Assembly (NCBI GenBank): GCA_025354865.1
Contig: JANXMB010000170.1
Coordinates: 1 to 64,000 of the forward strand
Source of the DNA: Acetobacteraceae bacterium
GTDB lineage: Bacteria; Pseudomonadota; Alphaproteobacteria; Acetobacterales; Acetobacteraceae
Length of the DNA: 64,000 nucleotides
Reading direction: 5' to 3'
Below, piece after piece: positions 1-15,708 of the stretch (position 1 is its first letter; each line of letters opens with the position of its first letter). The position numbers and the translations under genes were made by a program. Below the pieces are notes generated by a model, which saw only the letters and a program-made list of their open reading frames with translations, was not told where the DNA came from and ran no database searches.

Positions 1-1107
1 GCTCGGTTCTTCTACCTTGATGACCTGGAAGCGGCGCGCCAGTGCGGCATCCTTCTCGAAGTATTTTTTATATTCGCCCCAAGTGGTGGCGGCGATGGTG
101 CGCAGTTCGCCGCGCGCCAATGCCGGCTTCAGAAGGTTGGCGGCATCGTTCTGGCCGGCCTGTCCGCCGGCGCCGATCAGCGTATGCGCCTCGTCGATGA
201 ACACGATGATCGGTTTGGGGCTCGCCTTGACCTCGTCGATGACATTTCGAAGGCGGTTCTCGAACTCACCTTTGACCCCGGCACCGGCCTGCAGCAGGCC
301 AAGGTCAAGCGTGCGAAGCGTGACCTCACGCAAAGCCTCCGGCACGTCACCCTCGGCGATGCGCAGCGCCAGGCCTTCGACGACCGCGGTCTTGCCGACG
401 CCGGCCTCGCCGGTGAGGATCGGGTTGTTCTGGCGTCGACGCGTCAGGATATCGACCATTTGCCGAATCTCGGCGTCGCGGCCGAGAATGGGATCGATCT
501 TGCCGGCGCGGGCCAAGGCCGTCAGGTCGATGGTGAACTGCGCCAGCGCGCCGCTGCCGCCCATCGGGGTGGCGACACCTTCGGGCACGGGGCCACCTGC
601 TCCGCCAATCTCCCCGGCCGCCCGGGTCGTCTCCGGAGTGGAGACGGTCGCGGCCGAATAGTCCCGCTTCAAAGCGTCTGGCTGGATTTTGGCGAACTGC
701 CCGGAAACCTCGCGCGCATGTCGGGCCAGCGTGTCGTCAGCGAGCAATGCCCACAGCAGATGGCCGGAGCGGATGCGGCTCTGGCCATGCTCCAGCGTCG
801 CCAGCAGCCAAGCCTGCTTGACCAGTTCGACGATCTCCGGCGCCAAGGCGGGCGCACGGGCGTTGCCGGTGCGCATGCGGTCAAGTCCGCGGTTCAGGTC
901 TACCGCCAACCGTCCAGGATCGACATCGAAATGGCGCAGCAGGGAAACGATGTCGCTGTCGCTACGGTCGATCAGCGTCAACAGCCAGTGCTCGATTTCG
1001 ACATTGTAGTGCGAGCGCGACAGCGTCATGCCCGCTGCCGCTTCCAGCGCACGCCTGCAATCCTCGTTCAGCTTGCCGACAAGCAGCTTGAGGTCGATCG
1101 CAGCCAT
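1..1107 (-). CDS. clpV: T6SS sheath-recycling AAA+ ATPase ClpV (TssH), N-terminal part, cut by window edge
   Basis: This ORF has no stop inside the window, so the ORF track omits it. Reading leftward from ATG at 1107 gives 369 codons. A Clp-N double-repeat domain (about residues 10-150) precedes the first AAA+ module, with Walker A GEAGVGKTA near residues 231-239 and Walker B VFIDEAH near 300. ClpV hexamers extract and disassemble contracted TssB/TssC sheaths in the cytoplasm. It faces the tssA operon across 129 bp, so the two transcripts probably share a control region. ClpB is the alternative, but the T6SS context and the N-terminus favour ClpV. The second AAA+ domain lies outside the window. 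Confidence 0.93.
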   Translation of the reverse strand, partial: MAAIDLKLLVGKLNEDCRRALEAAAGMTLSRSHYNVEIEHWLLTLIDRSDSDIVSLLRHFDVDPGRLAVDLNRGLDRMRTGNARAPALAPEIVELVKQAWLLATLEHGQSRIRSGHLLWALLADDTLARHAREVSGQFAKIQPDALKRDYSAATVSTPETTRAAGEIGGAGGPVPEGVATPMGGSGALAQFTIDLTALARAGKIDPILGRDAEIRQMVDILTRRRQNNPILTGEAGVGKTAVVEGLALRIAEGDVPEALREVTLRTLDLGLLQAGAGVKGEFENRLRNVIDEVKASPKPIIVFIDEAHTLIGAGGQAGQNDAANLLKPALARGELRTIAATTWGEYKKYFEKDAALARRFQVIKVEEPS

Positions 1108-2528: not shown

Positions 2529-3038
2529 ATGAGTGGCAGCGTTCATGACAAGCTCAACCGGGTGCGCAAGCCGCGCGTCCATATTTCCTACGAGGTCGAG
2601 ACCGAGGGCGCCGAGATCGTGCGCGAGCTGCCGTTCGTGGTCGGCATCATGGGGGATTTTTCCGGCGATCCGACTCAGGCGCTGAAGCCGCTTGCCGAGC
2701 GCAAGTTCGTCCAGATCGATCGTGACAATTTCGACAGCGTGATGGCCAGCATGACTCCTGGCCTGAAGATCAAGGTCGATAACACCCTGGCCGATGACGG
2801 CAGCCAGATGTCGGTCGATCTCAAGTTCAATTCGATGGATGATTTTGAGCCGGCCCGGATCGCGGCCCAGGTGCCGGCCTTGGCCGCATTGCTGGAAACA
2901 CGGAACAAGCTGCGCGATCTCGCCAGCAAGGCCGATCGTTCGAAAGAGCTCGAGGGCTTGCTTGAGCAGGTGCTGAAAAACGAGGCCGACATGAAGTCGC
3001 TGTCGACGCAACTCGGCCTCGATAAGCAGGAGGGCTAG
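2529..3038 (+). CDS. tssB: T6SS contractile sheath small subunit TssB (VipA/ImpB)
   Basis: The protein has 169 residues, the usual length for TssB. It begins with the basic N-terminus typical of the family ([19 protein letters not shown]) and contains [12 protein letters not shown] and the [14 protein letters not shown] strand-helix region. TssB and TssC polymerise into the contractile sheath around the Hcp tube. Its stop is followed after 3 bp by the tssC ATG. The AGGAGG site for tssC lies inside the tssB coding end, so the two are translationally linked, as expected for obligate partners. Confidence 0.96.
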
Positions 3039-3041
3039 ACG

Positions 3042-4535
3042 ATGTCGGGAACCCAGACCGCACCAGTCGGTGCCGCCACGGAAACCCTGGAGGGCCTCAA
3101 CCTGCTCGACCAGGTGATCGGTGCCACCAAGCAGACCGAGCCGGACCGTGCACAGGAGCTGGTCAAGACGCTGGTATCGGAGGCGCTTTCCGGCACCATC
3201 ACCTTTGACAAGAACCTGGCCAAGACGATCGAGCGCGCGATCAACGCGATCGACCGCAAGCTTTCGACCCAACTCAACGCGGTCATGCATCATCCGCGCT
3301 ATCTGCAGCTTGAGGGCAGCTGGCGCGGGCTGAACTACCTCGTGCAGAATAGCGAGACCGGCACCGGGCTGAAGCTGCGGGTGCTGAATTCGTCCAAACG
3401 CGACCTGCATCGCGACTTGACGCGGGCCTCCGAGTTCGACCAGAGCCAGGTCTTCAAGAAGATCTACGAAGCCGAGTTCGGCTCCCCCGGCGGGGCACCC
3501 TACGGCGCGCTGATCGGCGACTACGAATGGACCCAGCATCCCGACGATGTCGAGACGTTGCGCCTGGTTTCGAATATCGCGGCCGGCGCCTTCGCACCGT
3601 TCATCTCCGCCGCCGGTCCGGGCATGTTCGGCTTCGATAGCTACACCGAACTCGCCAAGCCGCGCGATCTGGCCAAAATCTTCGAAGGCCCGGACTATTC
3701 GAAATGGCGCAGCTTCCGCGAAAGCGAAGATGCCCGCTTCGTCAGCCTCGTGATGCCGCGCACCCTCGCGCGCGCACCCTACGGCGTTGCCACCAAGGCG
3801 ATCGACGAATTCGACTACGAAGAAGCCCCGTACGACGCAGCCGGCGCCGCCAAAGCGATGGAACACGACAATTACTGCTGGATGAACGCGGCCTACGCGA
3901 TGGGCACACGGCTGACCGCCGCCTTCGCACAGTACGGGTTCTGCACCGCGATCCGCGGCGCCGAGGGCGGTGGTAAAGTCGAAAACCTGCCGACCCACGT
4001 CTTCCAATCCGACGACGGCGATATGGACGCCAAGTGCCCGACCGAACTGGCGATCACCGATCGGCGTGAGTTCGAGCTGTCGAACCTTGGCTTCCTGCCG
4101 CTCTGCCACTACAAGAACACCGACTACTCCGTGTTCTTCGGCGCACAGACGGTGCAGAAGGCGAAGAAATACGATCGGCCGGAAGCAACCGCCAACGCCG
4201 CCATTTCTTCCCGCCTGCCCTACATCATGGCGTCCGGTCGTTTCGCGCATTACCTGAAAATCATGGCGCGCGACAAAGTCGGTAGCTTCATGGAAGCGGG
4301 CGATGTGCAACGTTGGCTGAACCGCTGGATCACCAACTACGTCAACGGCAACGAAAACGCCGGGGCGGAAATGAAAGCCCGTTACCCCCTGCGGGAAGCG
4401 CGGGTCGAAGTCCGCGAAATCCCGGGCAAGCCCGGTTCCTACAACGCTGTGGCCCATCTGCGCCCGTGGTTGCAGATGGAAGAACTGACCACCAGCCTGC
4501 GTATGGTGGCCCGTATCCCAGCCGCATCGTCGTAA
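3042..4535 (+). CDS. tssC: T6SS contractile sheath large subunit TssC (VipB/ImpC)
   Basis: The protein has 497 residues, normal for TssC. Diagnostic blocks are LEGSWRGLNYLV, EFDQSQVFKKIYEAEFG with PGGAPYGALIGDYE, and the C-terminal GSFMEAGDVQRWLNRWI region with YVNGNENA. It forms the sheath with TssB and is the substrate of ClpV-driven disassembly. The gene is followed 31 bp later by a second TssC-like gene, which makes the locus imp-type rather than the simplest tssB-tssC arrangement. Confidence 0.97.
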   Translation: MSGTQTAPVGAATETLEGLNLLDQVIGATKQTEPDRAQELVKTLVSEALSGTITFDKNLAKTIERAINAIDRKLSTQLNAVMHHPRYLQLEGSWRGLNYLVQNSETGTGLKLRVLNSSKRDLHRDLTRASEFDQSQVFKKIYEAEFGSPGGAPYGALIGDYEWTQHPDDVETLRLVSNIAAGAFAPFISAAGPGMFGFDSYTELAKPRDLAKIFEGPDYSKWRSFRESEDARFVSLVMPRTLARAPYGVATKAIDEFDYEEAPYDAAGAAKAMEHDNYCWMNAAYAMGTRLTAAFAQYGFCTAIRGAEGGGKVENLPTHVFQSDDGDMDAKCPTELAITDRREFELSNLGFLPLCHYKNTDYSVFFGAQTVQKAKKYDRPEATANAAISSRLPYIMASGRFAHYLKIMARDKVGSFMEAGDVQRWLNRWITNYVNGNENAGAEMKARYPLREARVEVREIPGKPGSYNAVAHLRPWLQMEELTTSLRMVARIPAASS

Positions 4536-4566: not shown

Positions 4567-6138
4567 GTGAACGATATCGGCCTGGATGCGCTGACGTCCG
4601 TCGCTTCGGCGGCGGACGTTGCGGCCTCGGCACCGCCCGACGACGCACCGCCCGGTCTGCGCGTCGATATGTTGGCTGCGCGGTTCGTCGGCCGTAACGA
4701 TATCGTGCTGGCAGACTCCTTCGCCGGCTTCCTGAACGGTGAACCTGCGGATACCATCAGGCTCTGGTTCGGTGATGTCCTGGGGCAACGGCTCTCGATC
4801 GATGCCGATGCGTTGCGGGGCGCGCTCGATCGCGATATCGCGGCGATCGACGCCATGCTGTCCGAACAGCTTGATGCGATCCTGCACGATGCTCGGTTTC
4901 GCAAGCTCGAAGGCTGCTGGCGTGGCCTCGCGTGGCTGGTCGATGGGGTGGAGCAGGGCACCAAGCTCAAAGTCAAAGCCCTGAATTTATCCTGGGCGGA
5001 AATCTGCCGCGATCTGGAACGGGCCGTCGAATTCGATCAGAGCCAGTTGTTCAAGAAAATATACGAAGACGAGTTCGGCACACCCGGCGGGGAGCCGTAC
5101 GGCCTGCTGATCGTCGATCACGAGGTCCGCCACCGCCCCAGCGCGACCGCCCGAACCGACGACGTCAACGCCCTCGCGCTGTTGTCGGGCGTCGCAGCCG
5201 CGTCGTTCTGCCCGACCATTCTCGCCGCCGCCCCCGCGCTGCTCGACGCCGAGGGGTTCGCCGATCTCAACAATGTGAACGATATTTCGCGGCCGTTGCG
5301 CGACACCGAACACGCGCGGTGGCGGACGTTAAGCTCCCGGTCCGATATGCGGTTCATCGGCATTGCCCTGCCGCGCCTGTTGGCCCGCCCCCCGTGGGAG
5401 GCCGACGGCACCCGCGCCGACAATTTCGCCTATGCCGAATTTGCCCCCACCGCCGACCAGCGGGTGTGGATGAACCCAGCCTTCGCGTTTGCGGTGGTGG
5501 TTGCCCGAGCATTCGCGCAGTACGCATGGCCGGCCGATGTGCGGGGGGCGGAAACCGATCGTGTGGGCGGCGGATTGGTCGATGGTGCGCCGATCGAACC
5601 GTTCCGCACCGATTCCGATCGTAGCTGGATACGCATGCCGGTCGAAATCGTTTGGAACGATCGGCAGGAACGAGAATTGCTGGATTCCGGCCTGATGCCG
5701 CTTTCTGCCATTCCCTTCAGCCAGGAACTGGTGTTCGGCGCGGTGCGCAGCGTTTTGACCCCGCAACGCAGTGCCGGACCGATCGCGACCATCGCCGACG
5801 CCAATGCCCGGTTGTCGTCGCAGATCAACTCGATCCTGTGCGCATCGCGGTTCGCCCACCATCTGAAGATGAAGGGCCGGCAAATGGTCGGTTCGTTCAA
5901 AACGGCCGACGAAATCCAGCGTTCGTTGCAACAATGGCTGACGACCTACATCAACGGCAACCTGAATGCGAACGGGGAGACCCGGGCACGGTTTCCGCTG
6001 GTGAACGGTAAAGTGACCGTCAGCGAATTGACCGCCAAGCCCGGCGTTTTCGGTTGCGTTCTGCATATGCAACCGCACTATCAACTCGACGACGTGTCGG
6101 CGACATTCCAACTCGTTACCGATCTCGGCGGGCGATGA
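4567..6138 (+). CDS. impD: Second TssC-like sheath paralogue (ImpD type)
   Basis: The 523-residue protein starts at GTG and is plainly homologous to the preceding TssC. It shares LEGCWRGLAWLVDG, EFDQSQLFKKIYEDEFG and GSFKTADEIQRSLQQWL with YINGNLNANG. An extra N-terminal segment of about 70 residues precedes the shared core. Its position between tssC and tagJ matches impD of the rhizobial imp locus. The middle of the protein (roughly 190-370) has diverged strongly from TssC. It may be an accessory or baseplate-proximal sheath subunit, or a regulator of sheath assembly. Its exact job is not established by sequence. Confidence 0.88.
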   Translation: MNDIGLDALTSVASAADVAASAPPDDAPPGLRVDMLAARFVGRNDIVLADSFAGFLNGEPADTIRLWFGDVLGQRLSIDADALRGALDRDIAAIDAMLSEQLDAILHDARFRKLEGCWRGLAWLVDGVEQGTKLKVKALNLSWAEICRDLERAVEFDQSQLFKKIYEDEFGTPGGEPYGLLIVDHEVRHRPSATARTDDVNALALLSGVAAASFCPTILAAAPALLDAEGFADLNNVNDISRPLRDTEHARWRTLSSRSDMRFIGIALPRLLARPPWEADGTRADNFAYAEFAPTADQRVWMNPAFAFAVVVARAFAQYAWPADVRGAETDRVGGGLVDGAPIEPFRTDSDRSWIRMPVEIVWNDRQERELLDSGLMPLSAIPFSQELVFGAVRSVLTPQRSAGPIATIADANARLSSQINSILCASRFAHHLKMKGRQMVGSFKTADEIQRSLQQWLTTYINGNLNANGETRARFPLVNGKVTVSELTAKPGVFGCVLHMQPHYQLDDVSATFQLVTDLGGR

Positions 6139-6156: not shown

Positions 6157-6954
6157 ATGGCCGATATGACTGCCGCCGATCTGCTCCGCGCAGGCCGCCT
6201 GACCGACGCGATCGCTGCGGCGCAGGCAGCGGTGCGAAAGACCCCGCTCGATTTGGCGGGTCGCATTCTGCTGGCGGAGTTGCTGGTGTTTTCCGGCAAT
6301 CTCGAACGCGCGGACGTGCTGCTCGACGCCGCATCGACGATCGATCCGTCGGCCACCATGGTTGTCGCGGAATTCCGCCAACTCATCCGCGCCGATATGG
6401 CCCGCCGGCAATTGTTCCGCGATGGGCGGGTGCCGGAATTATTGTCGGATGCGACGGAAGCCCAGACCTTGCAACTCGCGGCGCTGGTGTCGTTGCGCGC
6501 GGGCGATGTCGAAACCGCCGCCCGGCAGACCGCTGCCGCCGAGGAAGCACGCCCCCGCGTGGCCGGCACTCATGGCGAAGCCGCGTTCGACGATTTCCGC
6601 GACGCCGACGACCTGCTCGCCGGCAATTTTGAGGTGTTGACCACCACCGGCAAATATTTCTGGATCCCGACCGAACGGGTGGTCAGCGCGGAATTCCACC
6701 CGCCGAAGCGCCCGCGCGATCTGATCTACCGCCGGGTGTCGATGACCGTGGCCGAAGGGCCCGATGGCGATGTCTATCTGCCGGCGATCTACAGTGCCGG
6801 CGACGATGCGTCGGAATTGCAGCGCCTCGGCCGCGAAACCGATTGGCAGCAGGCGGAAGGCGGCCCGGTGCGCGGCGTCGGCCAGCGCGTCTTCCTGATC
6901 GGCGAGGACGACTCCGCGATCATGGAACTCGGCGATCTCCGGTTCGGTGCATGA
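6157..6954 (+). CDS. tagJ: T6SS accessory protein TagJ (ImpE/HsiE family)
   Basis: The 265-residue protein has a TPR-like helical N-terminus (LLRAGRLTDAIAAAQAAV, LAGRILLAELLVFSGN) and a beta-rich C-terminal half with YFWIPTERVVSAEF and PRDLIYRRVSM, typical of ImpE/TagJ. In studied systems TagJ binds the sheath subunit TssB and influences ClpV recruitment, and it occurs only in some T6SS classes. A GGGGA ribosome-binding site precedes the ATG. The stop TGA overlaps the tssE ATG (ATGA), which indicates coupled translation. Confidence 0.9.
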   Translation: MADMTAADLLRAGRLTDAIAAAQAAVRKTPLDLAGRILLAELLVFSGNLERADVLLDAASTIDPSATMVVAEFRQLIRADMARRQLFRDGRVPELLSDATEAQTLQLAALVSLRAGDVETAARQTAAAEEARPRVAGTHGEAAFDDFRDADDLLAGNFEVLTTTGKYFWIPTERVVSAEFHPPKRPRDLIYRRVSMTVAEGPDGDVYLPAIYSAGDDASELQRLGRETDWQQAEGGPVRGVGQRVFLIGEDDSAIMELGDLRFGA

Positions 6955-7466
6955 GCGGACGCATCGGCTCCGGCTCGCGCGGCACCGCCGCTCGGGTGCT
7001 CGTGCCGCTGCTCGACCGGTTGATCGACGACGCGCCCGATCAGACCCGCGATCCGCCGCTATCGGCGTCGGAGTCGATGGTGATGTTGCGCCAGTCGGTG
7101 CGGCGCGATTTGGAATCGTTGCTCAACGCGCGGCGCACCTGGAAGTCCTGGCCGGCGTCGTTGACCGAACTCGCGGTGTCGCCGATCGGCTATGGCATCC
7201 CGGATTTCACTTCGGGCGCCTATAACGACCCGGCGCGGCGCGAAGATTTGCGCATGGAAATCGAAGAAGCGATCATGGCGTTCGAGCCGCGCTTCCTGTC
7301 GGTGCGTGTGGCGTTGATCGAATCGACCGAGCGGTTGGAAGCGACCTTGCGCCTGCGGATCGATGCGGTGCTGCATGCGGAACCGATGCCGGAACCGATC
7401 ACCTTCGACACGATCATCGACCCGACCACCGACAATATCGTCGTGCGCACCAACGATGCCGGGTAG
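6951..7466 (+). CDS. tssE: T6SS baseplate protein TssE (gp25-like, ImpF)
   Basis: The ORF track begins at 6843, but the real start is most likely ATG 6951, which overlaps the tagJ stop. That gives 171 residues. The gp25-like core is visible: RQSVRRDLESLLNARRTW, LAVSPIGYGIPDFTS, then an IEEAIMAFEPRF helix and a C-terminal strand region. TssE joins TssF, TssG and TssK in the baseplate wedge that primes sheath polymerisation. tssF starts 8 bp downstream. Confidence 0.93.
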   Translation: MSGRIGSGSRGTAARVLVPLLDRLIDDAPDQTRDPPLSASESMVMLRQSVRRDLESLLNARRTWKSWPASLTELAVSPIGYGIPDFTSGAYNDPARREDLRMEIEEAIMAFEPRFLSVRVALIESTERLEATLRLRIDAVLHAEPMPEPITFDTIIDPTTDNIVVRTNDAG

Positions 7467-7474
7467 TTCGCACC

Positions 7475-9295
7475 ATGTCTGACACGCTGCTCCCCTATTA
7501 CGATCGCGAACTGACGGCGATCAAACGCCTCGCGGCGGAATTCGCCGAACAGCATCCGAAGATCGCCGGCCGGTTGCGGCTGTCGGCCGACGCGGTGGAC
7601 GATCCGCATGTCGCGCGGCTGCTCGAAGGCGTGGCGTTCCTCGCCGCTCGGGTGCATCACCGGTTGGACGACGAATTCCCGGAACTGACCGACGCCCTGC
7701 TGGGCTTGCTCTATCCGCATTACCTCGCGCCGATGCCATCCTGCATCGTTGTGCAGATGAACTGTCAGGCCAGCCTGTTGCTGCCGGCCAAATTGCCGTC
7801 GGGCCTCGCCTTCTCCAGCGAACCGGTGTTGGGGGAGGCACTGAATTATCGTTCCACCTCCGCCGTCACGCTCTGGCCGATCGAGGTGGAGGCGGTTCGA
7901 CTGTCCGGCCTGCCGATCGTCGCGCCCGCCAACCCAGCGGCGGCCGGGGCGGCGGCGGTGTTGCGCATCACCCTGAAATGTCTGGCGCCCGACGTCACGT
8001 TCAACCAGTTGGGCGTCGACAAGCTGCGGTTTTTCCTGCGCGGTCCGTCGAACCAGACGCTCCCGTTGTATGAGCTGCTGTGCGGCCATACGATGTCCAT
8101 CGCCTTCGCCGACAGCGCGGCCGATCCGGCGCCGGTCGTGGTGCCCGCTGCCAGTATTCAGCCGGCCGGGTTTTCCGACGACGAAGCGCTGCTGCCCTGG
8201 TCGGCGCGCGGCTTCTCCGGCTTTCGCCTGCTGACCGAGTATTTCGCGTTTCCCGACAAATTCCTGTTCGTCGATATCGCCGGCATCGATGCCAAAACCA
8301 TGGCGTCGGGCGGCAATAAGCTGGAGATTTTCATCTACCTCGACCGTCCGGCGCCGGAATTGGAGCGCATGATCGGGGCGACGTCGATGGCGCTGGGATG
8401 CACGCCGTTGATCAATCTGTTTCAGCAACGCTGCGACCCCGTGCGCCTGACCCATACCGAAACGGAATACCGGGTGGTGCCCGATGCCCGCCGCCCCCGC
8501 GCGTCGGAGGTTTGGGCCGTCACAAGGGTGCGGGAAAACCTTGCGGATGGCAGTTTCCGGCCCTGGCGCCCGTTCCATCGGCTGTCGGAATCCGACGCCG
8601 AACCGGGCACGCCGGGCGGCTTCTACCACGTGACCCGCCGTGCCGCAGCGCCCGGCGTACCGGGGACCGAGGTCTTCCTGGCGCCGCACGACCCGGCCTT
8701 CGACCCGGACAAACCGGCCGATACCGTGCTGTCGGTCGATGCGCTTTGCGTCAATCGCGATTTGCCGACCGATCTGCCATTCGGCGGCGGGCACCCGCGC
8801 ATGCGCATGATCGAGGGCGCTGCGGCGGTCGCTTCGATCGTGCCGGTGACCGCGCCTACCCAAACCTTGCGCCCGCAATTGCGCGACAAAAGCTTCTGGC
8901 GGCTGATTTCGCATCTCTCGATCGGGCATTTGTCGGTCGTCGGCGGCACCGAGGGCGCGAACGCGGTCAAGGAAATCCTGCGCCTCTACGATCTGCGCGA
9001 AACCGCCGAAACCCATCTCTCCATCGAGGCACTGACCGGCATAACCTCCGCACCCGGTGTCGCTCGGGCGCCTGGTCATGGCGGCGCGTTCTGCCGCGGG
9101 CTCGACATCGTGTTGGAATTCGATCCGCGATCCTGGCAGGTCGCGGGACTGTATTTGTTGGCTTCGGTGCTGGAACGGTTTTTCGCGCTGCATGGCACGT
9201 TGAACAGTTTCACCCGCACCAAAGTCGTGCTGCGCGGGCGCCCGGGCACCGCTGCGGCTTGGCCGGCACGTAGCGGCACCCGCGATCTGGTATGA
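7475..9295 (+). CDS. tssF: T6SS baseplate protein TssF (ImpG)
   Basis: The 606-residue protein opens with LLPYYDRELTAIKRLAAEFA, the hallmark of TssF. It continues with HPKIAGRLRLS, DPHVARLLEGVAFLAARVHHRLDDE and ALLGLLYPHYLAPMPSCIVV. The C-terminus carries the GAFCRGLDIVLEFDP and LYLLASVLERFFALH blocks. TssF forms the (TssF)2-TssG core of the baseplate wedge. Its TGA overlaps the tssG ATG, consistent with the stoichiometric complex. Confidence 0.96.
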   Translation: MSDTLLPYYDRELTAIKRLAAEFAEQHPKIAGRLRLSADAVDDPHVARLLEGVAFLAARVHHRLDDEFPELTDALLGLLYPHYLAPMPSCIVVQMNCQASLLLPAKLPSGLAFSSEPVLGEALNYRSTSAVTLWPIEVEAVRLSGLPIVAPANPAAAGAAAVLRITLKCLAPDVTFNQLGVDKLRFFLRGPSNQTLPLYELLCGHTMSIAFADSAADPAPVVVPAASIQPAGFSDDEALLPWSARGFSGFRLLTEYFAFPDKFLFVDIAGIDAKTMASGGNKLEIFIYLDRPAPELERMIGATSMALGCTPLINLFQQRCDPVRLTHTETEYRVVPDARRPRASEVWAVTRVRENLADGSFRPWRPFHRLSESDAEPGTPGGFYHVTRRAAAPGVPGTEVFLAPHDPAFDPDKPADTVLSVDALCVNRDLPTDLPFGGGHPRMRMIEGAAAVASIVPVTAPTQTLRPQLRDKSFWRLISHLSIGHLSVVGGTEGANAVKEILRLYDLRETAETHLSIEALTGITSAPGVARAPGHGGAFCRGLDIVLEFDPRSWQVAGLYLLASVLERFFALHGTLNSFTRTKVVLRGRPGTAAAWPARSGTRDLV

Positions 9296-10335
9296 CGGTG
9301 CGATCCACCCTCGCGACTCTGCGCGACGCGCCGCGCAAATTCCGTTTCGACGCCGTCGTGCGCATTCTCGCCCGCGCCGCCAAAGCCGAGGATCCGGCCG
9401 ACGCGGCAAGATTTCGTACGCCGCCGGGGCTGGCCTATCCCCCGGCCGACGTTTTGCGGGTGCAAGGCGACAGGCGGCCCGATGTCGTGCTTGGTTTGAT
9501 GGGGCTGACCGGACCGTCCGGGGTCCTGCCACGCCATTACACCGAATTCGTGACCCACACGCTGCGTGGGCGATCGACGGCGCTGCACGATTTCCTCGAT
9601 ATGCTGTCGCATCGGTTCGTGGCATTTTTCGCCCGCGCGCCGATCAAATACCGGCCGGCCCCGGCTGCGGAAATCGCCGCCCTGCGCACCCCGCCGGAGC
9701 CCGATCCCATCACCCAGGTGCTGCTGGCACTGACCGGTTACGGCACCTCGAACCTCGCCGCACGGCTGCCGACCGGTTCGGAACCCATCCTCCATTACGC
9801 CGGCTTGTTCGCGATGCGTCCCCGCTCGGCCGAACGCCTCCAGGCGCTCATCGCCGATTTCCTGGGCATGGATGTGGCGGTGGAGGAATTTGCCGGCGCC
9901 TGGCTCAATCTGCCGCCGGACCAGCGCACGCGGATCGGTGCCTTCGGTTCGTTTGCGCGCTTGGGCGTCGATGCCTCGGCCGGCGTGCGCGCCTGGGACC
10001 CGCAAGCGCGTTTCGTGTTGAAGATCGGGCCGCTGCCGCGCGCGGATTTCGAACGCCTGTTGCCGGATCGCGGGGCGTTGGAACGTTTGGTGTCGTTGGT
10101 GCGGGCCTATGTCGGATTCGAACTGGGATTCGCCGTCAATCCCGGCCTGCGGGAAGACGATATCCCGGTTTTGCGCATGGACTCGACCGCCGATCCGGCG
10201 CCCCGGCTTGGGTGGAACACCTGGTTGCCGGCCGCGCCCGGCCGCATCGTGCGGCGCGGCGATGCCTGGGAGTCCATGTTCGAAGCCGAGGTTGTCGAAG
10301 CCCGCCTCGCCACAAGGGAAAAACCGACGCCATGA
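9292..10335 (+). CDS. tssG: T6SS baseplate protein TssG (ImpH)
   Basis: The 347-residue protein has the TssG signatures FRFDAVVRILARA near the N-terminus, LMGLTGPSGVLPRHYTE around residues 65-85, and LHDFLDMLSHRFVAFFARA around 95-115. It ends with a conserved region of paired strands and a LERLVSLVRAYVGFEL helix. It pairs with TssF in the baseplate. The upstream junction is an ATGA overlap with tssF. The downstream junction is an ATGA overlap with a methyltransferase gene, which is unusual for a T6SS operon. Confidence 0.95.
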   Translation: MTVRSTLATLRDAPRKFRFDAVVRILARAAKAEDPADAARFRTPPGLAYPPADVLRVQGDRRPDVVLGLMGLTGPSGVLPRHYTEFVTHTLRGRSTALHDFLDMLSHRFVAFFARAPIKYRPAPAAEIAALRTPPEPDPITQVLLALTGYGTSNLAARLPTGSEPILHYAGLFAMRPRSAERLQALIADFLGMDVAVEEFAGAWLNLPPDQRTRIGAFGSFARLGVDASAGVRAWDPQARFVLKIGPLPRADFERLLPDRGALERLVSLVRAYVGFELGFAVNPGLREDDIPVLRMDSTADPAPRLGWNTWLPAAPGRIVRRGDAWESMFEAEVVEARLATREKPTP

Positions 10336-11819
10336 GCCGTTGGAGCGACGGGTATATCGTCGATATCGCCTACCTCAGCGGGTGGTACCGGCAGCAATCG
10401 CCCGCTATGCTGGCATTGGCCTGCCTGCTGAACGGCGCCGAGGTTTCGATGCCGGCGGGCGATGAGCCGGTGCATGTTCTCGAACTCGGTTGCGGTCAGG
10501 GTTACGGCGCCTTGCTGCTGGCGGCGAGCAACCCGACCTGGCGCATCACCGCTGTCGATTTCAATCCGGCCCATATCGCCGCCGCCCGAGCCTGGGCGGC
10601 CGAGGCGCGGCTGGATAATGTCGTCTTCATCGAAGCCGATCTGGCAACATTGGCCGAGGATCCGGCGGCGCGCGACATTCCGCAGGCCGATTTCGTGTCG
10701 TTGCACGGCGTCTGGACCTGGGTTTCGCCTGCGGTGCAGGCCGGGATCGTGCGTCTTTTGCGCGCCAAAGTGCGGGCTGGGGGCGTGGTGCATGTCAGTT
10801 ACAACGTGCTGCCGTCCTGGGGGCCGCGGTTGGGGATGCAACGTCTTATCCACGACACCGGCGCGCGGCTCGCGGATCGCAGCGATCGGCAGGTGCATGA
10901 GGGATTGGCCTTCGCGCGCTCGTTGGCTGCGGCCGGGGCGCAGCATCTCGATCCCAACGGCGCGACGGGACAGTTTCTGGAGCAATTCGCCCAGCTTCCG
11001 GTCTCTTATTTGGCGCACGAGTTGATGAACGGGCACTGGAAGCCCTGTTTCATGTCCGACGTCGCCTCCGCCTTCGCCGATGCGAAACTGGAATGGGTCG
11101 GGTCGTCGAATTTAATAGAAAATTTCCCGGGTTTAACCCTGACCGAGCCACAGATTGCCCTTCACCAACGGTTCGACGATCCGTTGGTGCGGGAGTTGAT
11201 CAAGGATATGTGCATCGATCGGGCGCTGCGTCACGATGTCTTCGTGCGCGGTGTGCGTCGCATGAATCCGGCGCAACGCGATGCCGCGTTGATGGACATC
11301 GATATCGGGCTGACGATCCTGCCGGAGGAGTTGCCGACCGAAGCGGCCATTCCCGCCGGAAAAGTCCAGTTGAATCAATCGTTCTATCGACCGGTCGTCG
11401 ATGCCATGGCGGATGGGCCGAAGCGGGTGTCGGACCTGCTGCAACTGGAGCGGTCCCAGGGGCGGAAGGACAATCCGGCCGAACTCCTGGGAATTTTGGT
11501 GGGGCTGGCCTTCGCCGAACCGGCGGTCAGGCCGGCTTCCGGGCCGGGCAATGCCGCAATGCGGTTCAATCAGGTGGTGCTGCGCCGGCTGCTGCGCACC
11601 GAAAATATCGATCGACCGGCCGGGGCGGCGAGTTTGCGCATGGGAACCGGCCTGACTCTGACATTGTTCGACATGATGGTGGCCGACCAGGTTCGACAGG
11701 GCAACACCGATACCGCGCAGTTGGCGACGGCCATGCGACTGCCGGTGGACCGGCACGATGCCATAGATCGGGCGAAACGATTCCGCGTGCCGGTGCTGCG
11801 CGCGGCAGGGATTGTGTGA
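10332..11819 (+). CDS. SAM-dependent methyltransferase with C-terminal regulatory domain, coupled to tssG
   Basis: The ORF track extends to 10212, but ATG 10332 overlaps the tssG stop and gives 495 residues. Residues about 45-200 form a class I methyltransferase with motif I VLELGCGQGYG (49-59) and the acidic ribose-binding segment ITAVDFNP. The second half (about 215-495) looks like the methyltransferase regulatory domain plus winged-helix region that also occurs in rickettsial protein-lysine methyltransferases. The translational coupling suggests it modifies a T6SS component, but that is inference. The substrate could equally be a small molecule or an unrelated protein. Confidence 0.8.
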   Translation: MSRWSDGYIVDIAYLSGWYRQQSPAMLALACLLNGAEVSMPAGDEPVHVLELGCGQGYGALLLAASNPTWRITAVDFNPAHIAAARAWAAEARLDNVVFIEADLATLAEDPAARDIPQADFVSLHGVWTWVSPAVQAGIVRLLRAKVRAGGVVHVSYNVLPSWGPRLGMQRLIHDTGARLADRSDRQVHEGLAFARSLAAAGAQHLDPNGATGQFLEQFAQLPVSYLAHELMNGHWKPCFMSDVASAFADAKLEWVGSSNLIENFPGLTLTEPQIALHQRFDDPLVRELIKDMCIDRALRHDVFVRGVRRMNPAQRDAALMDIDIGLTILPEELPTEAAIPAGKVQLNQSFYRPVVDAMADGPKRVSDLLQLERSQGRKDNPAELLGILVGLAFAEPAVRPASGPGNAAMRFNQVVLRRLLRTENIDRPAGAASLRMGTGLTLTLFDMMVADQVRQGNTDTAQLATAMRLPVDRHDAIDRAKRFRVPVLRAAGIV

Positions 11820-11925
11820 GGGCCGTCTGCTCATCCGGTGAGACCGCGAAATTGTGATCTAGTTCTCATGACATGGGGCAAAAAGAGTGCTACACACACT
11901 CACCTGATCAATGGAGGATGCCGCT

Positions 11926-12531
11926 ATGCGTAAAATCTTCGCACCGTTTATTGCGTTACCCTTGGTCGTCGTCGGTCTGCCCGTATTCGCACAGAGCAGC
12001 CCCTCGGCTGACCAAATCATCAACTCGTTGAAACCGTCCGGCAATTTGATTTCGGGCGGAACACGCGGGATTCGTCTGGGTGCGCCTGCACCGACGATGC
12101 CGTCGCCGATGACCCCCGTCGCGACAGGCCAGCCGCATGCGCCGGCACGCGCCGCCTTGGCACAGGCGCCGCAAACCGCAGCGCCGTCCGCCAATCTGAC
12201 GGTGAATTTCTCCAGCGGTTCGGCCGACCTGACGCCGCAAGCGATCCAGGCCCTGAATGAACTGGGCCGGGCGCTGAGCAGCCAGGACCTGGCGGGCTAC
12301 AAGTTCCGGATCGAAGGGCATACCGATACGGTCGGAACCCCCGATGCGAATCGCATGTTGTCCGAACAGCGTGCCAAGGCGGTTGTGGCCTATATTACCA
12401 GCCATTTCGGCGTCGATGCCGGCCGTTTGCAGGCAATCGGCAAGGGGGAGGAAGACCTCGCGGTGCCGACCCCGGCGCAAACCGCCGAACCGCGTAACAG
12501 ACGCGTGTTGGTGGTGAACCTAGGCGCGTAA
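11926..12531 (+). CDS. OmpA/MotB-domain envelope protein
   Basis: ATG 11926 is preferred over the track start at 11911 because the GGAGG ribosome-binding site lies between the two. The product has a signal peptide ending near PVFAQS, a Pro/Ala-rich linker, then an OmpA C-terminal peptidoglycan-binding domain: LTVNFSSGSADLTPQ, YKFRIEGHTDTVGTPDAN, LSEQRAKAVVAYI, and NRRV at the end. It could anchor the T6SS trans-envelope complex to peptidoglycan, as OmpA-domain proteins in other T6SS loci do, or serve general envelope stability. It lies 106 bp after the methyltransferase gene and may have its own promoter. Confidence 0.85.
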   Translation: MRKIFAPFIALPLVVVGLPVFAQSSPSADQIINSLKPSGNLISGGTRGIRLGAPAPTMPSPMTPVATGQPHAPARAALAQAPQTAAPSANLTVNFSSGSADLTPQAIQALNELGRALSSQDLAGYKFRIEGHTDTVGTPDANRMLSEQRAKAVVAYITSHFGVDAGRLQAIGKGEEDLAVPTPAQTAEPRNRRVLVVNLGA

Positions 12532-12571
12532 AGCCTTCCGGCGGCTTGCGGCACAGTCTAGGGTGGCGGTC

Positions 12572-13642
12572 ATGAAGCCCGCCGCCCGCACGACCCGAAA
12601 TCCGTCCGATGACGATACCGTCAGGATCGCCCCAAAGCGGGAGCCGACGAAGCCTCGACCGAAACCGGCCCCGTTCGGCGCTATTTTTGCCGGTGCGCTG
12701 GTTGTCGGCCTCGGCGCCGGTGCCGCAATCTGGTTCCTGTGGCCACATAGTCAACCGCCAGCCATTGCGACGCTGGCGCCGCCTCCGCCTGCGGTGCTCC
12801 TACCCCCGCCGGCTGTGCCACCGGCGCCGCGTCCCCCCGAATTTCGCATCGACAGCACCACCGAAGCGCTGCTGCGGGACAACACGACAACCGGACTGAG
12901 TATTTTTCGGCTCGCCGCAAACCCCAATATTCTCATTCTCGATTTCGCCTCCCTGCTGGATCAAGGTGCGATGCTCAATCGGCTCGGCGCCTTCGCGGAA
13001 AAAGCCGGGTTGCCGCACGATCGGCTGCTCACCGACGCCGAATTGCAGCAAGCGATTCTGGCCGGGGGCGATACAGCCGAAACCTACTACTATGGGCACG
13101 ACTATAGCGCGGCCGAAATTGCGCGGTTTTTCGCGATCGCCGGTCGGGACCGTATCGCACTGAACACACAGGAGGAAACGCTGCGCCGCCTGATGCAGCA
13201 GGTCGGCTGGCTAGCCGAGAACAAGGCCGGCGGCCTGATTTCCGTGCCGCGGGTCGGCGCCAACGCCGAGGTGACGGCCGATAGCCGCGCCACTATCCTG
13301 CATCACGAATTGTCGCACGGCGAGTATTTCAGCAATCCCGCCTTCGCCGCTTACACCCGCCGATTTTGGACAACCCTGCTGACCCCGGTGGAGCGGGACG
13401 GGATGCGCAAGTTTCTCGCGAAGGAAGGCTACGATATCGCAAACGATATGCTCGTCGAGAACGAGGCGCAGGCCTATATCGTCTTCACCCTGAATCCGGC
13501 CTTCTTCGAGCCCGCGACGATTGGGATGGCGGAAGCCCGCCGCGCCGCGTTGCGCGCGACCTTCCTGCGGGAGATGCCGACCGACTGGCTCCGCGATTCC
13601 GCCCCTCCGAAACCGGAAATCGCCCGCGCCACCATTCGTTAG
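12572..13642 (+). CDS. Membrane-anchored putative zinc metallopeptidase (HExxH)
   Basis: ATG 12572 sits behind an AGGGTGG site and is preferred over GTG 12563. The product (356 residues) has a short basic cytoplasmic tail, one transmembrane helix (about residues 35-57), a Pro-rich linker, and a soluble domain that should face the periplasm. That domain contains HHELSHGEYF (about 244-253), an HExxH zincin motif, followed about 55 residues later by VENEAQAY, whose Glu could be the third zinc ligand. I do not recognise a named family. The T6SS neighbourhood suggests a role in envelope remodelling or as a secreted or anchored effector, but this is unproven. Confidence 0.75.
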   Translation: MKPAARTTRNPSDDDTVRIAPKREPTKPRPKPAPFGAIFAGALVVGLGAGAAIWFLWPHSQPPAIATLAPPPPAVLLPPPAVPPAPRPPEFRIDSTTEALLRDNTTTGLSIFRLAANPNILILDFASLLDQGAMLNRLGAFAEKAGLPHDRLLTDAELQQAILAGGDTAETYYYGHDYSAAEIARFFAIAGRDRIALNTQEETLRRLMQQVGWLAENKAGGLISVPRVGANAEVTADSRATILHHELSHGEYFSNPAFAAYTRRFWTTLLTPVERDGMRKFLAKEGYDIANDMLVENEAQAYIVFTLNPAFFEPATIGMAEARRAALRATFLREMPTDWLRDSAPPKPEIARATIR

Positions 13643-13767: not shown

Positions 13768-15708
13768 CTACTTCGCGACAGTGTCCAGCATGAACGACTG
13801 CCCATTGACCCGGCCGCGTTTTCGCGCGGCTTCGACCGCCGCTCGGAGATCGCGCAGGTATTCGGCGGCCGGCTCCACGTTCGAGGGCCTCGGTCGATCG
13901 AACAACGGCACGGCGGATTGGATCGCGACGATCATATCCATGCCGTAGGGTTCCCCGACTTCCCAGGCCGGGTGGCCGGGCGTGACCTCCCCAAGGCTCA
14001 GCGCCTCCGCCGGGTTGAAAATCCGAGCGTTCGGGTCGGCAGCGACCCCCTGTTTGACGTCGGCAGTCTGCGGATAGAGGTGCAGGACATTGCCGTCGTG
14101 CGCGACGTAATCGACCCGCAGTGCGCCTTTGAAATCGGCCATGGTCAGGCGCGGGCGAATACGGTCGCCATCGCGCAGCGTGGTGCGGCCGTCGGCCAGA
14201 TTCAACGACAGGCCCGGCGCGGCGGTGCCGAACCCCCGTGCGATCGGTTGCAGGATATCCAGCGCCGGGCAGAACACCGGATCCACGGCGACGACCTGCC
14301 AATTGACCCCACCGGGGATGGTCATCGCGGCCAGACCGTTGCGCAAGGCGTCGGGCACGGGCTGCGCGGCTGCGCCCTTCAAGCTTGCCGCCCCCGTCGA
14401 TCCGACATCGCCCTCGATCGTGGCGCAGCGTTGGGCGGCAATGAGTTGCGCGATCTGCCCGCGCAGCGCTTCGAGCGCAGCCGGCCCGGTCGGATTGGGC
14501 GGCGGCGGGGTGGGCGCGACGATCGGTTCCGGCATCGGCGCGGGTGCGGGCGGCATGGGGATGGGTACGGGCGTCGGCGGCGTCACCGGTATCGATGCCA
14601 GTGGCGCTGGTGATGCAATCTGGGGTTGAATCAATGGCGCGACGATCGGAGGCGTCGGTTTGGACGGCCCGCTCAAGGCGAAATACCCGCCGACTCCGGC
14701 CAGCAGGACAACCGCCGCTGCGGCCCCGGCGATCAACGGCATGGACGATTTCTTGGTCGGTGCCGCCGCCGGTGCTGCCGCTGCGGCCGGAGTGGCGGCG
14801 CGCGTCGGCGGCGGTGTCGGGGTGCCACGGCGGGGGGCGGCGATCATCGTCGCCTCGTGGTCGTCGGCTTCCTCCGTCGCCAGCGGCCGCCCTTCGGCGG
14901 CATCGCGCACCGCAGTGGCGAAATCGGCAGCATTGGCGAAGCGGTCGTTCGGCCGCTTCGCCATCGCCTTGCGCACCACCGCATCGAACGCCGGTGGCGT
15001 GGTCACGGAAATTTGCGAGGGCAAAGACGGCTCGGTATTCAGCGCCTTGTGCATGATCGCCGACATGCCGCCTTCGAACGGACGCTCCCCGGTCAGCAAC
15101 TGGTAGAGCAGCACGCCGGAGGAATAGATGTCGGATCGGGAATCGACGACCTCCCCCATGATCTGTTCGGGGGACATGTAGGCGGGGGTGCCGAGCACGG
15201 TACCCGCTTGCGTCATCGAGGAGCTTTCGATGCGGGCGATGCCGAAATCGGCGATTTTGGCCTGACCGCCGCTGGTGAGCATCAGGTTGGCGGGCTTGAT
15301 ATCGCGATGGACGACGCCGCGGTCGTGGCTGAACTGCAACCCTGCCAGCAGGTCGTCCATGATCCGGACGGTGTTGGCGATGGTGAAACGCTCTTGTTTA
15401 TCCAGCAGATTTTTCAACGGCGGGCCGTCGATATACTCCATCACGATGTAGGCGACGTCCGCCGTCTCGCCATAATCGAAGACGCCGACGATATTCGGAT
15501 GGGTCAGCCGGCCGGCGGCCTGCGCTTCCCGGCGGAACCGGGCGAGCGCTTCTTCGGTTTCGGGATCGGTCGCATCCGGCAGGTTAACGGTTTTAACCGC
15601 CACGCGCCGTTCGATGATCGGGTCCCAGCCTTCGTAGACTGTTCCCATCGCGCCCTTGCCGAGTTGGCGCTTGATCTCGTACTTCCCAAGTTTATCGACC
15701 GTCGCCAT
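13768..15708 (-). CDS. ppkA: Transmembrane Ser/Thr protein kinase, PpkA-like
   Basis: The 646-residue protein has a Hanks-type kinase domain at residues 9-270: Gly-rich loop GKGAMG, Lys39 in VAVKTV, catalytic HRDIKPAN (134-141), DFG (154-156), and activation segment GTPAYMSPEQ. A Pro/Ala-rich linker, one transmembrane helix (about 325-345), a second Pro-rich linker and a periplasmic C-terminal domain with a DUF4384-like segment (LRPRLTMADFKG-type region, VLHLYPQ) follow. PpkA kinases switch T6SS on by phosphorylating Fha in the threonine phosphorylation pathway. Fha and the phosphatase PppA are not in the window. The T6SS link rests on position and architecture. Confidence 0.88.
   Translation of the reverse strand: MATVDKLGKYEIKRQLGKGAMGTVYEGWDPIIERRVAVKTVNLPDATDPETEEALARFRREAQAAGRLTHPNIVGVFDYGETADVAYIVMEYIDGPPLKNLLDKQERFTIANTVRIMDDLLAGLQFSHDRGVVHRDIKPANLMLTSGGQAKIADFGIARIESSSMTQAGTVLGTPAYMSPEQIMGEVVDSRSDIYSSGVLLYQLLTGERPFEGGMSAIMHKALNTEPSLPSQISVTTPPAFDAVVRKAMAKRPNDRFANAADFATAVRDAAEGRPLATEEADDHEATMIAAPRRGTPTPPPTRAATPAAAAAPAAAPTKKSSMPLIAGAAAAVVLLAGVGGYFALSGPSKPTPPIVAPLIQPQIASPAPLASIPVTPPTPVPIPMPPAPAPMPEPIVAPTPPPPNPTGPAALEALRGQIAQLIAAQRCATIEGDVGSTGAASLKGAAAQPVPDALRNGLAAMTIPGGVNWQVVAVDPVFCPALDILQPIARGFGTAAPGLSLNLADGRTTLRDGDRIRPRLTMADFKGALRVDYVAHDGNVLHLYPQTADVKQGVAADPNARIFNPAEALSLGEVTPGHPAWEVGEPYGMDMIVAIQSAVPLFDRPRPSNVEPAAEYLRDLRAAVEAARKRGRVNGQSFMLDTVAK

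Follow-up and report, generated by a model that had tools for sequence, protein, structure and literature searches.

The type VI secretion system (T6SS) is a contractile injection machine of bacteria. The question raised by the locus described here is what a class I methyltransferase gene, translationally coupled to a baseplate gene of this machine, does there. The gene was studied in a window of 64,000 nucleotides, this being the whole stretch of DNA analyzed, from an Acetobacteraceae bacterium (GCA_025354865.1, contig JANXMB010000170.1, positions 1–64,000, forward strand).

Gene cluster and coupling of the methyltransferase to tssG

The T6SS cluster opens with tssH (ClpV; 1–1107, minus strand), which is cut by the contig end and was read from the sequence. 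It is divergent from a plus-strand series formed by tssA (1237–2361, ImpA_N match), tssB (2529–3038), tssC1 (3042–4535), a second tssC, tssC2 (4567–6138, VipB E 5e-100), tagJ (ImpE; 6157–6954, PF07024, E 2e-38), the gp25-like tssE (6951–7466, PF04965, gp25 E 2e-16), tssF (7475–9295, PF05947, E 1e-205), tssG (9292–10335, PF06996, E 4e-82) and the methyltransferase gene (10332–11819). There follow, on the same strand, an OmpA-family gene belonging to the conserved cluster (11911–12531) and a gene for a protein with a zinc-protease-like HELSH motif (12563–13642), and then a Ser/Thr protein kinase of PpkA type on the minus strand (13768–15708, Pkinase E 1e-53). The HELSH-motif protein gave no Pfam match and recurs in related T6SS clusters. 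As the genes for TssK and Hcp, among the core genes checked, were located elsewhere in this genome, on separate contigs, the T6SS looks complete despite the fragmented assembly.

The open reading frame, strand and length of the methyltransferase are as originally predicted. Its start overlaps the stop of tssG in the tetranucleotide ATGA (10332–10335), and the same kind of junction occurs at 6951 (tagJ-tssE) and 9292 (tssF-tssG), again as had been claimed. The original prediction had made a T6SS-specific role depend on finding the gene beside tssG in relatives, and in a survey of 299 Acetobacterales genomes a homologue was directly downstream of tssG, on the same strand, in 55 of 101 tssG loci. 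Conversely, of the best 100 homologues in these genomes, 68 followed a tssG on its own strand at a distance of no more than 5 kb, and among the 27 orthologues of at least 38% identity, 24 retained the overlap of 4 bases (−4). Integration into the operon, as predicted, is borne out. In all the fetched loci that reached tssG the homologue was directly downstream of it, with tandem copies in some genera. Since so many of the best homologues lie near tssG and the overlap is so often kept, the association with tssG is not due to chance and the place of the gene in the operon is not incidental.

Class-wide and phylum-wide samples added the tssG-methyltransferase pair in six further alphaproteobacterial families (loci L100–L105), and in Aureimonas sp. 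AU20 a plasmid-borne tssG is followed by the methyltransferase (−4 overlap) and then by a protein kinase. No T6SS-linked methyltransferase was found among the bacteria sampled from the phylum's other classes. In two loci (L042 and L043) the block tssB-tssC1-tssC2 has the opposite orientation to tagJ-tssE-tssF-tssG-methyltransferase, with the tssG-methyltransferase coupling retained.

Relationship of the enzyme to protein lysine methyltransferases

The protein has 495 amino acids and, as read from the sequence, an N-terminus without obvious signal peptide. The predicted class I fold was confirmed, with class I methyltransferase profiles matching residues 49–144 (Methyltransf_25, 10476–10763) and motif I, VLELGCGQGYG, at residues 49–59. 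The domain search also detected MethyTransf_Reg (PF10119; residues 225–306, 11004–11249, E 1e-22). Both domains are present in 33 of 33 T6SS-linked members of the family, in which the only other domain recorded was a DprA_WH match (E 1e-5) in a single member. Concerning the long winged-helix C-terminal half that had been proposed, its length holds, and the winged helix is weakly supported, by this one match.

A layout like that of the rickettsial OmpB lysine methyltransferases had also been proposed, and the solved structures agree with it. Rickettsia PKMT2 was the top match in a search with the single sequence (E 5e-13), and the profile of the 33 T6SS-linked homologues run against the PDB gave PKMT2 (1e-32) and PKMT1 (3e-31; PDB 5dnk and 5doo for the pair), the next structure being weaker by about 20 orders of magnitude (E 1e-11) and matched in the SAM motif alone. 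The alignment spans the AdoMet and dimerisation domains, up to residue 301 with PKMT2 or 339 with PKMT1. Past residue 339 the PDB profile search detected no match for the C-terminal ~155 residues, so the C-terminal third cannot be aligned to the rickettsial enzymes. This is also the most variable region among T6SS-linked members, with mean identities of 26–35% versus 55% in the catalytic domain. An AlphaFold2 model built from two sequences was poor (pLDDT 43).

At the residue level, the AdoMet-contacting Asp and His described for PKMTs (PMC11784438; Asp74 and His118 in RtPKMT2) correspond to D76, kept in 33 of 33 T6SS-linked members, and H125, kept in 31 of 33. The motifs HGVxxWV and SYNxLP are likewise common to the window enzyme and PKMT1/PKMT2, and the motif I glycines, D103, G126, W128, W130, P161, H229-E230 and R306-G307 are invariant in the T6SS-linked members. 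On the other hand, Leu75, through which PKMT2 recognizes OmpB, is Phe in the window enzyme, and the rickettsial enzymes act on an autotransporter while the window enzyme is encoded in a T6SS operon. A similar combination has been described for KmtA of Acinetobacter sp. Tol 5, an enzyme of PKMT-type layout and similar length which has lost the OmpB-recognition residues and kept those for AdoMet, and whose middle and C-terminal domains are only 16% identical to those of the PKMTs; its target is the trimeric autotransporter adhesin AtaA, and a T6SS link is not reported (PMC11784438). Taken together, these comparisons make it rather probable that the methyltransferase is a PKMT-like protein methyltransferase. 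The best reading is that it is probably cytoplasmic and AdoMet-dependent, with an intact AdoMet motif and a predicted enzyme activity.

In one locus (L053, 5851–10396) tssG is followed by three methyltransferases in tandem, two of which have Asn or Arg in place of the AdoMet-contacting His125; these two copies are possibly regulatory pseudo-enzymes. A methyltransferase fragment in Rhizobium etli Re87 was dismissed as a relative, its O-methyltransferase domain belonging to a different family, and no relatives were found in a scan of viral contigs.

The comparison with relatives outside the T6SS bears on the kind of substrate. Several of them adjoin genes for RTX/hemolysin-type or Ig-like exported proteins, frequently accompanied by genes of type I secretion (L091, L098, L099, L112, L114, L116 and L119; in the last six the neighbours are RTX/hemolysin-type proteins or components of type I secretion). 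This suggests that the family pairs generally with exported proteins. Two such MethyTransf_Reg enzymes, from Rhodospirillum rubrum and Ruegeria sp. TM1040, share ~31–33% identity with the window enzyme over most of its length and adjoin exported-protein genes, differing from it in their RTX and type I secretion context and in their branches of the tree. The characterised relatives methylate OmpB and AtaA, autotransporters that are exported surface proteins (PMC11784438). The window genome itself has a paralogue of 31% identity (L074, contig C22, 8750–10300), also a MethyTransf_Reg methyltransferase, whose neighbours are a Hint_2 protein, an ornithine/arginine-type decarboxylase and a possible PEP-CTERM protein, with no T6SS link; similar paralogues occur in related genomes.

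Other relatives are found within glycosyltransferase clusters (L087 and L095), so that sugars or other substrates are allowed in the wider family. This, together with the loss of H125 in two of the three tandem copies mentioned above, is what could be said for a glycan, lipid or small molecule as the target, or for a regulator devoid of enzyme activity, in either case with an incidental place in the operon. Nevertheless, such an interpretation appears improbable. The nearest relatives of solved structure are protein methyltransferases, and the synteny and overlap with tssG are conserved. Similarity to a small-molecule methyltransferase family had been named beforehand as an argument against a T6SS-specific role; no such family passed its own cut-off or matched more than the generic SAM motif, and no NCBIfam methyltransferase equivalog came near its cut-off.

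Inheritance with a T6SS subtype

The T6SS-linked copies are near-monophyletic, and form essentially one clade: a grouping of all of them with four unlinked enzymes was tenable (AU p 0.73), and the label "linked" required two changes on the tree versus a mean of 24 when shuffled. The distances between methyltransferases correlate with those between baseplate proteins (Mantel r 0.85 for TssF, 0.85 for TssG and 0.79 for TssE), and pN/pS against the two nearest relatives was 0.30–0.34, close to that of tssG, which indicates purifying selection. On the TssF tree, the methyltransferase is present in 28 of 42 clusters with two tssC genes and in 0 of 7 with a single one, with several losses within the double-tssC subtype; in some of the clusters devoid of it, tssG is directly followed by ompA. 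Because of the conserved synteny and the co-divergence with TssF and TssG, the methyltransferase is very likely dedicated to the double-TssC T6SS subtype of Alphaproteobacteria. It is, however, an accessory component of Tag type and not a core one, as several clusters of the same subtype are without the gene: it is dispensable for the machine, and keeps a constant position in T6SS clusters across genera and families. Of the T6SS role originally proposed, the dedication stands, with the qualification that the gene is accessory.

These data also bear on whether the protein could instead be cargo of the T6SS, an effector that acts as a methyltransferase once delivered. In this respect a precedent is tsb1 of Bradyrhizobium sp. 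LmicA16, a gene which we take to lie within the T6SS region of that organism. Its product, a methyltransferase-domain protein considered in a Bradyrhizobium T6SS study, has been proposed as a possible effector, the mutant showing a nodulation phenotype intermediate between those of the wild type and a vgrG mutant (reviewed in PMC10879055). Tsb1 may be a homologue of the window methyltransferase, the likeness being by description: both are methyltransferase-domain proteins studied in connection with an alphaproteobacterial T6SS. A VgrG gene shortly downstream in one locus (L100) also goes in the direction of an effector. Against this, it is tssG, not vgrG or hcp, to which the methyltransferase is coupled; it contains its two domains with no PAAR, VgrG or Hcp fusion found, and is flanked by conserved cluster genes among which no partner immunity gene was recognized. 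Moreover, its fixed place and vertical co-divergence are at odds with the fast turnover of cargo. Synteny and inheritance were weighed in choosing between an effector and a component of the machine, and a role as effector is considered quite unlikely.

Candidate substrates and relation to the kinase

The enzyme's place has been kept in many alphaproteobacteria; therefore, this T6SS subtype, or something travelling with it, is probably methylated. The original prediction looked for the substrate among T6SS components, and an enzyme acting on TssE, TssF or TssG as an assembly checkpoint would be in keeping with these being its closest, translationally coupled neighbours, and with the existence of conserved lysines (K119 in TssG, K29 and K262 in TssF). 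Yet clusters that lack the enzyme conserve these lysines just as well, and in the window TssE, TssG and TssF contain only 1, 5 and 12 lysines, versus 13 in TssB (169 residues) and 24 in TssC1. Known PKMTs modify many lysines of a single target (PMC11784438). Since the baseplate proteins are nearly lysine-free, a sheath or exported protein is the likelier target, and the baseplate proposal, less likely than these, is judged improbable.

The lysine-rich sheath subunits TssB and TssC1 are thus the first candidates, and to name them as the target is a guess that we hold as possible at most. Their lysine content was somewhat enriched in enzyme-bearing clusters (p 0.002 and 0.04, respectively), an effect surviving a GC covariate. 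As it was absent in the sister pairs checked, it was not counted as evidence. A search for lysine columns of T6SS proteins present only alongside the enzyme gave none that was convincing; K491 of tssC2 (p 0.02) was weak and was discarded. A single suggestive case for the sheath is an orphan gene for a 509-residue TssB-TssC fusion (VipA and VipB profiles; L106, 7026–8555, minus strand), which is not part of a T6SS cluster and is oriented divergently to a homologue of the methyltransferase. A second locus (L108) has the same neighbourhood without the fusion gene, and a similar fusion occurs elsewhere (L055, 16965–18437).

Concerning the kinase, it had been suggested that methylation and phosphorylation are used together. 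In the window the relation is one of position, as the kinase is on the strand opposite to the methyltransferase, with two genes between, while in Aureimonas and in loci L102 and L104 a kinase lies directly 3′ of the methyltransferase on the same strand. It is plausible that both modifications work as a pair. The fuller proposal, that the subtype's own protein-lysine methyltransferase methylates the sheath (or another T6SS protein) and, with a PpkA-type kinase, sets assembly or firing, is advanced tentatively, as less likely than not.

Considering all the evidence jointly, the best explanation, which we regard as fairly probable, is a T6SS-dedicated enzyme of the PKMT/KmtA superfamily that would methylate a T6SS protein before assembly; its lysine chemistry, substrate and effect are inferred. 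Coupling to tssG would have the enzyme made together with baseplate and sheath proteins, so that it could modify its substrate, probably at several lysines, with TssB/TssC1 as first candidates and an exported component or effector as second. The methylation might then tune sheath assembly, ClpV recycling or surface properties.

Protein lysine methylation in bacteria is known chiefly from surface proteins. A literature search for PKMTs or lysine methylation linked to T6SS found nothing direct. If Tsb1 is homologous, the gene has been seen before, while the family and its coupling to tssG went unrecognized in the literature searched. The methylation layer, if true, would be a post-translational control undescribed for contractile injection systems in that literature. 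The pairing of PKMT-like enzymes with type V, type I and type VI secretion is a suggested pattern, and the locus makes testable the question of whether an injection machine or its exports are methylated, and its use thereby controlled.
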